This document shows positions 29,351 to 44,787 of a DNA stretch of 64,000 nt, one piece after another. Position 1 is the stretch's first letter, and the number at the start of each line of letters is the position of its first letter. This DNA is from a virus: the IMG/VR virus record IMGVR_UViG_3300020720_000005, positions 1-64,000 of that record. The stretch is one strand, 5' to 3'. Position numbers and translations under genes: made by a program. The notes under the pieces are model-generated. The model was given only the letters and a program-made list of their open reading frames with translations, was not told the origin of the DNA and did no database searches.

Positions 29351-29654
29351 TATTTTTGGACCAACTATTGAATGGATTAAAGATGACTGGAGAAGTAACC
29401 CTACTAGATTTGTTCTTGAGCTGCTTGCTTGGGCTATCAGTGTTGGCTGCAGCATCACGATGGCAGTCACAGTCCCTAATCCTCCTCTTATTTTACTATA
29501 CCCTGTCTGGATTAGTGGCTGTGCTCTTTATGCTTATGCTGCTTATACTCGGAAATCGTTTGGGATGCTTGCTAACTATATCTTGTTAACAAGTATTGAT
29601 ACATTTGGATTAATAAGGATGTTGGTGGCGACTGGGGTTTTAAAACACTGGTAA
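29343..29654 (+). CDS. Integral membrane protein, 3 helices
   Basis: A 103-residue protein with a cytosolic start (MLDIFGPTIEWIKDDWRSNPTR) and three predicted membrane helices (about 23-43, 48-68 and 75-98). The segment DWRSNPTRFVLELLAWAISV recurs in marine T4-like phages as an uncharacterised membrane protein. A PnuC-like transporter relation is possible but unproven. Confidence 0.68.
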   Translation: MLDIFGPTIEWIKDDWRSNPTRFVLELLAWAISVGCSITMAVTVPNPPLILLYPVWISGCALYAYAAYTRKSFGMLANYILLTSIDTFGLIRMLVATGVLKHW

Positions 29655-41094: not shown

Positions 41095-41120
41095 AAAAGG
41101 GCACTTCGGTGCCCTTTTTT
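41095..41120. terminator. Bidirectional terminator between gene 32 and tail genes
   Basis: AAAAGGGCAC-TTCG-GTGCCCTTTTTT: a stem with a UUCG tetraloop and a T run. It ends gene 32 and, with its A run on the other side, may also stop the converging minus-strand tail operon. Confidence 0.92.
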
Positions 41121-42759
41121 ATGCGTATTTTGTAGCGATATACCTACTTTGAGATGACTCTTGGTTCCTAATTGGAGATTTAATAACCTGATTAGTAGTA
41201 TTGTTCGTAGTTTGCGGAGCATTGACTACATTAGTCTTGTTACTTGCAACTGGAGCACCAGATAATGCCGCATTATCAGCAGATTTTTGTTCAACTGTAG
41301 TAGCACTTGTTGGCGTAGCTGCTTCTGGTGTACTACCTTTTGCTTTAGCAGGTTCAGCATCTTTAAATGGATAGAACGGACCAACGCTAACTTTACCTGT
41401 TAATTTTGTATCTAATAAAGTAATTTCTGGAATACCTATCTTAGATAACATACCCATGAAAGCATCCTTCATTGATGTGAAGAATTCTGTTACTGGCTTA
41501 ATGATATGGTCTTCAGTCCATGCTGCCATATCGCCAATAACTTCTTTGATTTTATCTTTATCAAATAATCCAAAAGTTAAGAAATCAATTATACCAGCAA
41601 GACCAGCGATAAGTGCTTTACCGATATCGCCTGTCTTTTGGAACTCCTCAAACCCATCCATAATACCTTCAAATAACGCACCAACAATCATACCAATTGC
41701 AAATACTTTACCTAGTGCTTTAAGGATTGCTCCTGGATTTAATAATGCTTTAAATGCTTGCATTAAACCACCAGAGAGCATACTGAATAACGAATCTAAT
41801 AAACCACCACCTTCTGGTTTCTTTTCATCTGGTTTAGCACCTTTAGATTTATCTGCGCCTCCAGTATTCTCAGCAATAATTTTTAAATAATGGAGTTCGT
41901 CATCCTCCATTTTTTTACTTTCTTCAACTGCTTCTGCGTTTTGAGTAGCTTCAGCAGCAGTTGCTGTTGGAGTTTTTTGAGGAGCACTAACCTTATCAAA
42001 ATTAATATTTCTTTCAGTTGGATCTGGAGTTACTGCTTTTGCACTTTTATCATAAGAACGGTATTGGTTAGTTAGCTGTTCTTTTTTATTAAGCATCTCT
42101 TTACCAGTTTTAGATGCTCCAAATTCTTCGTCGCTAATACCATGTTTAGCTTTAAGAGCAGAAATTTTCTGATCATGAGCTTTTATTTGTTTAGAAGTAT
42201 TATATGCACCTTCAGCATCTTCATCAGTAACATCATTACCAAGTGCTTTTTGTTTCTGTTTAAACGCATCTTTGGCCAGAGTTTTATTAAAAACACCACC
42301 AACATTTAATGCCCCAAGAACTGTTTTCTTTAAACCACCATTAGCAATACCAAACTTTTCTTTAACCCCCTCTTTCTTTTGAGTTAAAGAGTCACCAAGT
42401 TTTTGTAGAAAATTACCACTAGTATTCATCGCCTTTGCTAACTCAGCAATCTTATCAGATTCTTGATAAGCAATCCTGTCCATTTCTTCTCTAGTTTTCC
42501 AAAATGTTTTGCTACCTTTTAACTGTTGTTTTGCGGTATCTAGAATTTGTTCTTGGATTTTGGAAACATCAATACCACCATTAGCATTTTTCTGAATTTT
42601 CTCACGGTCTTTAGATAGTTCCATCAGCTTTCTAATTGAAGATAGTTCACCAAGAGAAGCCTGTTGTGCTGCCAGTAGATTATCTAATCCCTCAGCATTA
42701 GACTGTGTCTGTTGTCTGATACTAGAATTTACTGAACTGTTACCTGTGCGTTTTGCCAT
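41119..42759 (-). CDS. Putative tape-measure protein (gp29 position)
   Basis: A 546-residue protein. The N-terminal half is helical and charged (about 1-240). A hydrophobic Gly/Ala-rich region (about 320-400, GLLDSLFSMLSGGLMQAF onward) is typical of tape measures, and the C-terminal tail is Ser/Thr/Asn-rich. It follows directly after the frameshifting chaperone pair gp26/gp51, the standard position of a tail tape-measure gene. I assign it on position and composition rather than on sequence motif. Confidence 0.6.
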   Translation of the reverse strand: MAKRTGNSSVNSSIRQQTQSNAEGLDNLLAAQQASLGELSSIRKLMELSKDREKIQKNANGGIDVSKIQEQILDTAKQQLKGSKTFWKTREEMDRIAYQESDKIAELAKAMNTSGNFLQKLGDSLTQKKEGVKEKFGIANGGLKKTVLGALNVGGVFNKTLAKDAFKQKQKALGNDVTDEDAEGAYNTSKQIKAHDQKISALKAKHGISDEEFGASKTGKEMLNKKEQLTNQYRSYDKSAKAVTPDPTERNINFDKVSAPQKTPTATAAEATQNAEAVEESKKMEDDELHYLKIIAENTGGADKSKGAKPDEKKPEGGGLLDSLFSMLSGGLMQAFKALLNPGAILKALGKVFAIGMIVGALFEGIMDGFEEFQKTGDIGKALIAGLAGIIDFLTFGLFDKDKIKEVIGDMAAWTEDHIIKPVTEFFTSMKDAFMGMLSKIGIPEITLLDTKLTGKVSVGPFYPFKDAEPAKAKGSTPEAATPTSATTVEQKSADNAALSGAPVASNKTNVVNAPQTTNNTTNQVIKSPIRNQESSQSRYIATKYA

Positions 42760-42765
42760 TTTAGT

Positions 42766-42951
42766 TTATCTCTTGTTTGTTTCTATTCTTTGTTTTTCTT
42801 CTTCTAAATACTGTATTAACATAGCAACGTAAACTTCTCTTTCAAAAGGAATCATATTTTCAATCTCTGCTAGAGAGTATTTGTGGTACTGCATCAAAGC
42901 GAAATTCATTTTATAATAATTCGCTAGACTTTCATGGCAGAGATTAATTAA
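42766..42951 (-). CDS. 51: gp51-like tail chaperone part, expressed by -1 frameshift
   Basis: A 61-residue frame that begins in the T8 run at the end of gene 26 (re-reading position 42951 as TTA) and contains NYYKMNFALMQYHKYSLAEIENMIPFER split over about 11-38. This region resembles gp51/tail-assembly chaperone sequences of T4-like phages. It has no good independent start: the only early ATG (15th codon) lacks a ribosome binding site. It ends 6 bp before the tape-measure start. Confidence 0.65.
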   Translation of the reverse strand, partial: LINLCHESLANYYKMNFALMQYHKYSLAEIENMIPFEREVYVAMLIQYLEEEKQRIETNKR

Positions 42952-43670
42952 AAAAAACTTTGCATTCCCTCCAAGGTTTTAATATGATGTTTGCCACATA
43001 TTGGACAGTCGTATTCAACATCTTTTTTAATCCTTGGTATAGTTGAAAAGAATTCTTGGACTTTTATAAATTGCTCAGAATTTAGATTACCCAAGAATTC
43101 AATTAGATCTTCTTTCTTTTGTTCTTTAGCGTAGTGTAGTTTATCGCCTTCGTAAATATAATTTACACACTCAGCTATAATATTAAAAATATTATCTAGA
43201 TCATCAGTATCAGTTTTTTCTAACTTACTCATAATTTCAATTGTTGGATATTTCATTACAATACCAACATCACCAAATAAATCTATTTTTGCATTATGAT
43301 TTTCTGGAGTTTCAACAGAAATTTTAGTTAAATCAATTGAGATCTTTACCTTGGCTTTATCGTTTTGATCCCCATGGTCATTATCACACGGAAATAATAG
43401 TTCAACAGTTTCACCAACAGATTTTGCTCGAATTTGAGTAAAGATATACTCAAGATCAAATGTAGCTAAATCATTTGGATCAATTTTATCTAAAATACAA
43501 GATCTGATTACACTCTTAAGCGTATCTACCATAATAACAGTATCTTCACTTTGTTGCGCAATTAAAATTGCCTTTTCTTCTTTTACTAAAAACGGACGAT
43601 ACTTAACACTTTTTTTAGTAGAAGGTATCACCAAATTATAAATTGGTGTACTCATTACTGGCAATGCCAT
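42948..43670 (-). CDS. 26: gp26-like tail/baseplate assembly chaperone
   Basis: A 240-residue protein of the T4 baseplate gp26 group (T4_baseplate family): IPSTKKSVKYRPFLVKEEKAILIAQQSED near the start, then a central acidic domain and a C-terminal CPICGKHHIKTLEGMQSFF. The CPxC-x2-HH arrangement could bind zinc. The gene ends AGT TTT TTT TA(A) in a run of eight T, where -1 slippage would fuse it to the gp51-like frame. Confidence 0.82.
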   Translation of the reverse strand: MALPVMSTPIYNLVIPSTKKSVKYRPFLVKEEKAILIAQQSEDTVIMVDTLKSVIRSCILDKIDPNDLATFDLEYIFTQIRAKSVGETVELLFPCDNDHGDQNDKAKVKISIDLTKISVETPENHNAKIDLFGDVGIVMKYPTIEIMSKLEKTDTDDLDNIFNIIAECVNYIYEGDKLHYAKEQKKEDLIEFLGNLNSEQFIKVQEFFSTIPRIKKDVEYDCPICGKHHIKTLEGMQSFF

Positions 43671-43672
43671 AA

Positions 43673-44095
43673 TTATTCTCCTTTAGACATATTCTTAATT
43701 AACTTATTCAACTCAGCAGTGCTACCAACAAAGATAGCATTATTCGTTACTTTATCAGCACCTTTCTTTGGTGCATCTAATTTTTGTTTTTGCTGATGTA
43801 TATCTAATAGTTGTTGGTTTACATCAGCCAATTGTTTCATAAGATTACCCACAACCTCAAAAGCACGTGGATGTTCAGATTGTTTAGCTACTTCAAGAGC
43901 AGAATATAAAGCATTCTGTCCAGTAATAAGAAGCTCGCGCAGATTTGCTCTAGTAGTTTCGTAGTCGGTTTCAATTTTACTTTCTGGTGTTTGTAGAATT
44001 TCACCAGTAGTATTATCAATCACTTCGCTTACCTCACATTTAGATTTTGGAGGTGTCATATTAAACACCTCTGATAATGTATCATCAATTTTCAT
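43673..44095 (-). CDS. 16: Small terminase subunit gp16
   Basis: A 140-residue protein with the central coiled helices of T4 gp16: DYETTRANLRELLITGQNAL, then EVAKQSEHPRAFEVVGNLMK and QLADVNQQLLDIHQQKQKL. It oligomerises as a ring and stimulates DNA packaging by gp17, which is not in the window. It is separated from gene 26 by 2 bp. Confidence 0.87.
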   Translation of the reverse strand: MKIDDTLSEVFNMTPPKSKCEVSEVIDNTTGEILQTPESKIETDYETTRANLRELLITGQNALYSALEVAKQSEHPRAFEVVGNLMKQLADVNQQLLDIHQQKQKLDAPKKGADKVTNNAIFVGSTAELNKLIKNMSKGE

Positions 44096-44097
44096 AT

Positions 44098-44787
44098 TTA
44101 TAGATCGTTTCTAGTATTTCTTGTTTGTGGGTCACTGGGGTGTAAAACAGGGGTTACTGCTGCTGGCGCTGGAGTTGTTGTAGGTGCGCTTCCAAAACTA
44201 CCTGCGCCTGTTGCTGCTGGACTACCAAACCCACCTGCGCCTGCTGCTGGCGCTGGACTTGGTGAACTACCGAAACCACCCCCACCGAATCCTCCTGGCG
44301 TAGATGCGCCAAATGCTGGAGTGCTGCCCATTGATGAACCACCGAATCCGCCATTTCCTGCTCCTCCGAAACCACCTGTTGATCCACCAAATCCTCCAGC
44401 ACCACCCATTCCTGTATTTCCACCAAATCCTCCAGCACCACCCATACCACCTTGCATCCCGCTAGGAACACCTGACATATTTGTATTGTTTGTCATAGTT
44501 TGTGAAGTAGCTGTTGGATTTGCCGCAGTACCTGCTAATTTTTCTTGTGTGCGACCAAACGCACTAATACCTAAAACTGCTCCCATTGCTATATGAAATA
44601 AACCAGCACCCTGGAGAGTTAATGGATTCCATTGAATTAATGGTTGGTGATTTAATGTTTGAACAACTGCCCAAAGAATTGGAAATATGCCCATGTCTAA
44701 TAGACATATCAACATATACATCCAGCCCATAGCTGGACGCCATTTCTTTTGCATCCAATCTTCGTCTTTTTCCTTTTTCTCTGCCAT
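44098..44787 (-). CDS. Holin-like membrane protein with Gly-rich tail
   Basis: A 229-residue protein. Residues 15-85 match the three-helix phage holin type (KWRPAMGWMYMLICLLDMG, then FHIAMGAVLGISAFGRT). Residues about 110-210 are a low-complexity Gly/Phe/Ala/Pro domain with many GGFGG and GGAGG units, probably disordered. It may control lysis by letting the GH19 endolysin reach the wall. The long Gly-rich tail is unusual for a holin. Confidence 0.72.
   Translation of the reverse strand: MAEKKEKDEDWMQKKWRPAMGWMYMLICLLDMGIFPILWAVVQTLNHQPLIQWNPLTLQGAGLFHIAMGAVLGISAFGRTQEKLAGTAANPTATSQTMTNNTNMSGVPSGMQGGMGGAGGFGGNTGMGGAGGFGGSTGGFGGAGNGGFGGSSMGSTPAFGASTPGGFGGGGFGSSPSPAPAAGAGGFGSPAATGAGSFGSAPTTTPAPAAVTPVLHPSDPQTRNTRNDL
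44384..44445 (-). repeat. 26-bp tandem-type repeat in the holin-like gene
   Basis: CCACCAAATCCTCCAGCACC plus CACCAT-type continuation is present twice (44384-44409 and 44420-44445, 36-bp period), encoding MGGAGGFGG units. It points to expansion of the Gly-rich tail by slippage or recombination. Confidence 0.7.

Follow-up and report, generated by a model that had tools for sequence, protein, structure and literature searches.

The gp26-like gene of the marine T4-like virus studied here, gene 26, very probably encodes a G/GT-type tail assembly chaperone that is made in two forms by -1 programmed frameshifting, as the earlier note on this sequence had proposed. Our study of the window (the whole stretch analysed, 64,000 nucleotides) and of its relatives identified a conserved frameshift signal, a -1 frame that is translated, homology to T4 gp51 and gp26, and a chaperone-like fold in the short form. 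The two forms would share their N-terminal part; their two reading frames overlap, and the ORF that follows is a candidate tape measure gene.

Organization of the locus

Inspection of the sequence placed the gp26-like gene, the -1 frame and the next ORF on the minus strand. The earlier note, which gave no strand, had described gene 26 as ending AGT TTT TTT TAA in a run of eight T, and this can be read directly in the window (...CAA AGT TTT TTT TAA). Its 61-codon -1 frame stopping 6 bp before the next gene also agrees with our coordinates: the extension starts at TTA (42951), its 61 codons translate to LINLCHESLANYYKMNFALMQYHKYSLAEIENMIPFEREVYVAMLIQYLEEEKQRIETNKR, its stop occupies 42768..42766, and six bases (42765..42760) lie between this stop and the ATG of the next ORF. 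The long product, formed by the gp26-like part and the -1 extension, has 301 aa. The features of the locus are included in Table 1.

The T8 sequence occurs once in the 64 kb, both strands considered, where dinucleotide shuffles expect 22; T8/A8 runs are thus strongly depleted across the whole window. We also scanned the window for selected heptamers near the ends of ORFs of at least 100 codons. The only other heptamer with a long -1 opening was TTTAAAA near 29639(+), two codons before a stop, where the -1 frame is open for 196 codons and is probably the overlapping next gene.

The 546-aa ORF that follows the -1 frame is a putative tape measure gene, as suggested by its position, its hydrophobic centre and a length that differs among relatives; it gave no family match in PF12322/phrog-type profile searches or in NCBIfam, and no sequence homology of note to annotated tape measures. 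Directly upstream of gp26, also on the minus strand (43673-44095 and 44098-44787), we found two further genes: one resembles a terminase small subunit (phrog_445, 3e-40), and the other, which has a long Gly/Ala-rich tail, resembles a holin (phrog_3427, 5e-8).

Table 1. Coordinates of the features at the gp26-like locus of the window
Feature	Position	Strand	Evidence
gp26-like ORF, short product (TAC-N / gpG-like), 240 aa	42948..43670	-	PF12322, phrog_150, AF2 model
Slippery heptamer T_TTT_TTT, within T8 run 42950-42957	42951..42957	-	conserved in relatives
0-frame stop TAA, immediately 3' of heptamer	42948..42950	-	position kept in relatives
-1 frame extension (gpT-like / 'gp51'), 61 codons + stop	42766..42951	-	phrog_634, pN/pS, hhalign
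Internal ATG of -1 frame, gene-caller choice for 'gp51' start	42907..42909	-	extension codon 15
Next ORF, 546 aa, candidate tape measure protein	41119..42759	-	position, hydrophobic centre, length variability
Shine-Dalgarno-like GGAGGG, candidate frameshift stimulator	42967..42972	-	GAG codon bias
Predicted stem 5' arm UUAAUCUCUGC, 3 nt past heptamer	42937..42947	-	RNA folding
Predicted stem 3' arm GCAGAGAUUGA	42860..42870	-	RNA folding

Relationship to T4 gp26 and gp51

Profile searches assigned both products to PF12322, the family of T4 gp26 and gp51. The gp26-like ORF matches T4_baseplate (PF12322) at 3e-58 and phrog_150 at 4e-66. The -1 extension matches phrog_634, 'baseplate hub assembly catalyst', at 3e-26, and it also matches columns 239-276 of phrog_150; therefore, some phages carry both parts in one protein. 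When compared with hhalign, the long product aligns with T4 gp51 over its full length (4.6e-26), the alignment with T4 gp26 (8.8e-27) ends at the shift site, and the extension aligns with the C-terminus of T4 gp51 (1e-9). The resemblance that the earlier note had seen between the -1 frame and the gp51 of T4-like phages is borne out by these profile matches, with one refinement: judged from the alignments, T4 gp51 comprises an entire gp26-like protein together with the extension, not the extension alone, and T4 gp26 is this same protein with its end at the shift site.

In T4, gp26 (208 aa) and gp51 (249 aa) are encoded by two adjacent divergent genes, both labelled phrog_150, in line with the earlier statement that this phage makes them separately. 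Sequence comparison indicates that they are paralogues (blastp 1e-5 in T4 and 3e-10 in RB69; 4.7e-18 between profiles), and T4 gp26 reads GAG TTC TTT GAG at the shift site, where the slippery run has been lost. Duplication would therefore stand in for the frameshift in T4.

Conservation of the slippery heptamer

To follow the junction among relatives, an alignment that the earlier note had proposed as a check, we scored a set of 90 loci composed of 80 IMG/VR relatives, nine named phages and the window. The T run and the downstream frame are kept: an in-frame heptamer of the X_XXY_YYZ type, T_TTT_TT(T/C/A), lies at the shift point in 90/90 loci, as T_TTT_TTC in 54, T_TTT_TTT in 34 and T_TTT_TTA in 2. 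The 0-frame stop is found 0-2 codons past the heptamer in 88 of the 90 loci and 8 codons past it in the other 2, and the complete -1 extensions have 57-69 codons. Five genomes outside the set (AS-yj, pf16, P-TIM68, S-N03 and C48C1) agree with this pattern.

The conservation is visible at the level of single bases. Among the 81 nonredundant loci, the codon that precedes the heptamer's two Phe codons is AGT, TCT, GAT, AAT or GCT, so that the amino acid before the T run varies and the final T never does (81/81). Likewise, the first Phe of the heptamer is TTT in 81/81 loci, whereas TTC makes up 28% elsewhere. Under the codon use of the genes themselves, the chance of these patterns is about 4e-19 for the final T and about 2e-12 for TTT with loci treated as independent, values that overstate the weight of the evidence because the loci are related.

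Translation of the -1 frame

Special attention was given to the stretch of the -1 frame that lies ahead of its internal ATG. Among close relatives, pN/pS in this stretch is 0.25 in the -1 frame and 1.36 and 1.03 in the other two frames; across fifty relatives, it is 0.45 in the -1 frame and at least 1.0 in the others. Protein-level constraint on the -1 frame, therefore, starts just 3' of the heptamer, upstream of the first ATG (codons 3-14).

This result bears on the strongest competing explanation, in which gp51 is an independent gene whose translation either starts at the internal ATG (42909) or is coupled to that of gp26 and resumes past its stop. Most records annotate gp51 in this way (in 8 named phages the annotated 'gp51' sits in the -1 frame of gp26), and an ATG is indeed present; it is the sole in-frame ATG near the start of the -1 extension and has no Shine-Dalgarno sequence. 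However, it is only in the -1 frame that the codons ahead of it show conservation as protein. We also looked in 86 loci, from the upstream -1 stop to the fifth codon of the extension, for the kind of start that the earlier note had named as evidence against its proposal, an independent gp51 start with a Shine-Dalgarno sequence; none was found (0/86), and 54 of the 86 loci have no ATG, GTG or TTG at all in this region, so that the claim that the frame lacks a good start of its own extends to its relatives. In addition, a separate start would not require T_TTT_TTY in every relative, and the gp26-like domain is present in its entirety in T4 gp51. An independent start is ruled out by the constraint upstream of the ATG together with the lack of starts, and we consider this explanation as a whole, coupling included, improbable. 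The -1 extension is most likely entered from gp26, being translated from the shift point.

Candidate stimulatory elements

Two kinds of elements that could stimulate frameshifting flank the heptamer. The first is the Shine-Dalgarno-like GGAGGG, which ends about 9-10 nt upstream of the heptamer in an arrangement that is unique in the window. At this place among the relatives, the Glu residue four codons ahead of the one ending in the first T of the heptamer is encoded by GAG in 45 cases and by GAA in 16, whereas these codons number 442 and 1338 in the remainder of the genes (OR 8.5, p 5e-15); on this codon usage, the GGAGGG-like element is selected at the codon level.

The second is an RNA structure downstream. 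In the window, 42947-42937 is predicted to pair with 42870-42860 in an 11-bp stem, a register common to 13 loci in which column 11:82 changes among AU, UA and GC. Counting stems whose 5' arm begins 3-9 nt past the heptamer, a strong stem is present in 32% of loci versus 3.1% in synonymous-codon shuffles (largest 9%), with a control arm position also above the null, more weakly (6.4% versus 1.3%). The mean folding energy downstream is 2.07 +/- 0.20 SD below the synonymous null (mean MFE z -2.07). The partner of the stem is not constant, with at least 3 alternatives among relatives, and a strong stem is missing from many loci. A single conserved downstream hairpin was rejected, since three registers recur among the loci.

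These elements also help to weigh transcriptional slippage, in which RNA polymerase slips on T8 and a mixed pool of mRNAs encodes the fusion. Homopolymers near this length can cause such slippage, and T8 is the only run of its kind in the window. On the other hand, 54 of the 90 loci have T_TTT_TTC, where the run is ended by C and is short for transcriptional slippage; the conserved unit is a heptamer phased with the codons; and the Shine-Dalgarno-like element and the downstream structure act on ribosomes. We regard this explanation as very improbable. A sequencing or assembly error in the homopolymer can be practically dismissed: although such runs are error-prone and the virus record of the window is classed as possibly fragmentary, the comparative data refute it, since the frame is broken at this codon in all 90 loci, among them those of the isolate genomes S-PM2, P-SSM2, HTVC008M, phi-pp2 and Cr30, and in many of these loci the run is shorter.

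Fold of the short form and proposed mechanism

The AF2 model of gp26 (pLDDT 88) points to a tail assembly chaperone fold. Its closest solved structure (VIA) is the HK97 gp13 tail assembly chaperone, 2OB9 (Z 7.7, 84 residues, 4.2 A), followed by 3FGX (Z 7.5), YqbN 3KLU (7.1) and 5IR0 (5.0); only these four reach Z 5 or more, and the following match has 2.5. Foldseek with the same model also ranked 2OB9 first, without significance. It is important to note that a Z under 8 can reflect a common arrangement, yet a wide gap separates the chaperones from the matches that follow them. 2OB9, 3KLU and 3FGX are phage tail assembly chaperones (PMC9603447). When the same search was run with a T4-type gp51 model, chaperone structures were not returned among the PDB chains compared.

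Concerning the occurrence and efficiency of slippage, the roles of the two forms in tail assembly and their binding partners, we infer the following course. Most ribosomes would end at the TAA past the T run and release the 240-aa short form. A minority, paused by the Shine-Dalgarno-like GGAGGG upstream and probably also by the RNA stem downstream, would shift back by one base on U_UUU_UUU and continue for 61 codons, which yields the 301-aa long form. If the two forms act as lambda gpG/gpGT do, the tape measure protein would be coated by the short form, and tail tube subunits would be recruited through the extension of the long form.

Evolution of the junction

In a tree of 28 sequences of the gp26/gp51 family, the gp26 and gp51 of T4, RB69, Moonvirus, Acinetobacter and Aeromonas 25 form one clade (95/93), which divides into gp26 and gp51 subgroups. 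The frameshift is kept in the KVP40-like phi-pp2, in AS-yj and in Ci1; in Aeromonas phage AS-yj (L122 2690-2878), the -1 extension after AGT TTT TTC is present and unannotated. Vibrio phage TDDLMA (L127 1878-3220) has tandem gp26/gp51-like genes on one strand, a short one of 216 aa and a long one of 229 aa, which group apart. This tandem suggests a second duplication replacing the frameshift, which is likely and not firm because long branches meet in the tree. We give roughly even chances to the wider reading that frameshifting is ancestral in T4-like phages, with a three-part signal (the Shine-Dalgarno-like element, U_UUU_UUY and a stem whose 3' partner would have been repeatedly rebuilt), and that at least two lineages, T4 with its relatives and TDDLMA, independently swapped it for duplication.

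Other kinds of junction were observed in further phages. The gp26-like genes of Ackermannviridae (L090 3199-3402, L125, L105-L119) have a conserved -1 extension that matches phrog_9633 and, weakly, phrog_634. Their junction reads GAR ATT TTC ATT TAA, with no canonical heptamer, and ATTTTCATTTAATTTTTGAAATTGATTTA is identical in the Ackermannviridae loci compared, though the proteins are about 72% identical. In Vibrio phage K441 (L126 2570-2590), the junction AAG TAATG is a stop-start overlap leading to an ATG in the -1 frame, and its sequence suggests that this phage may use coupling in place of frameshifting.

Comparison with known systems

Tail assembly chaperones with a conserved -1 frameshift were reported by Xu, Hendrix and Duda 2004, as described in PMC5009743, where G-T frameshifting is considered widely conserved, T4 excepted. 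In T4, what gp51 does and where gp26 belongs were long uncertain; gp51 is needed for assembly yet is not part of the finished particle (PMC3004832), a behaviour that suits a chaperone. According to the statements in PMC10885494 and PMC12846349 that cite it, the identification of gp26/gp51 as tail assembly chaperones is due to Vladimirov, Gautam and Davidson 2022 (Virology 566:9-15), and the core of our reading is, therefore, already known. From the same work, PMC10885494 cites that in some T4-like phages two genes, one short and the other longer and fused, take the place of frameshifting, and PMC12846349 cites poly-T slippery sites in the TAC-N genes of T4-like phages. The stimulatory elements and the second duplication may be new details.

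The candidate described here resembles lambda gpG/gpGT in that -1 slippage at the 3' end of one gene adjoining a tape measure gene (a candidate in our case) gives short and long forms, and the proteins, of low similarity, share a fold; it differs in belonging to the PF12322 family, not to that of lambda gpG, and in its site, U_UUU_UUY. The cyanophages and pelagiphages S-PM2, P-SSM2, HTVC008M and S-RIM44 have the same gene arrangement, heptamer and extension, whereas the gp26 of the named phages, these included, is at most about 43% identical to that of the window and their gp51 is recorded as a separate gene. What is annotated as a separate 'gp51' in marine T4-like phages most likely represents no more than the end of the frameshift product, and many records would therefore be misannotated.

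In the E. coli dnaX signal, the heptamer A_AAA_AAG is preceded at about 10 nt by a Shine-Dalgarno-like element and followed by a stem. The same three parts are found here, with the difference that our predicted stem is longer-range and varies in place among relatives. Finally, T4 gp26 and gp51, described as baseplate hub and hub assembly proteins, correspond in full-length profile alignment to the short and the long product, respectively, but they are two divergent duplicated genes, and here a single gene would be frameshifted. One family that includes T4 thus offers a natural comparison between frameshifting and duplication as ways of fixing a protein ratio.
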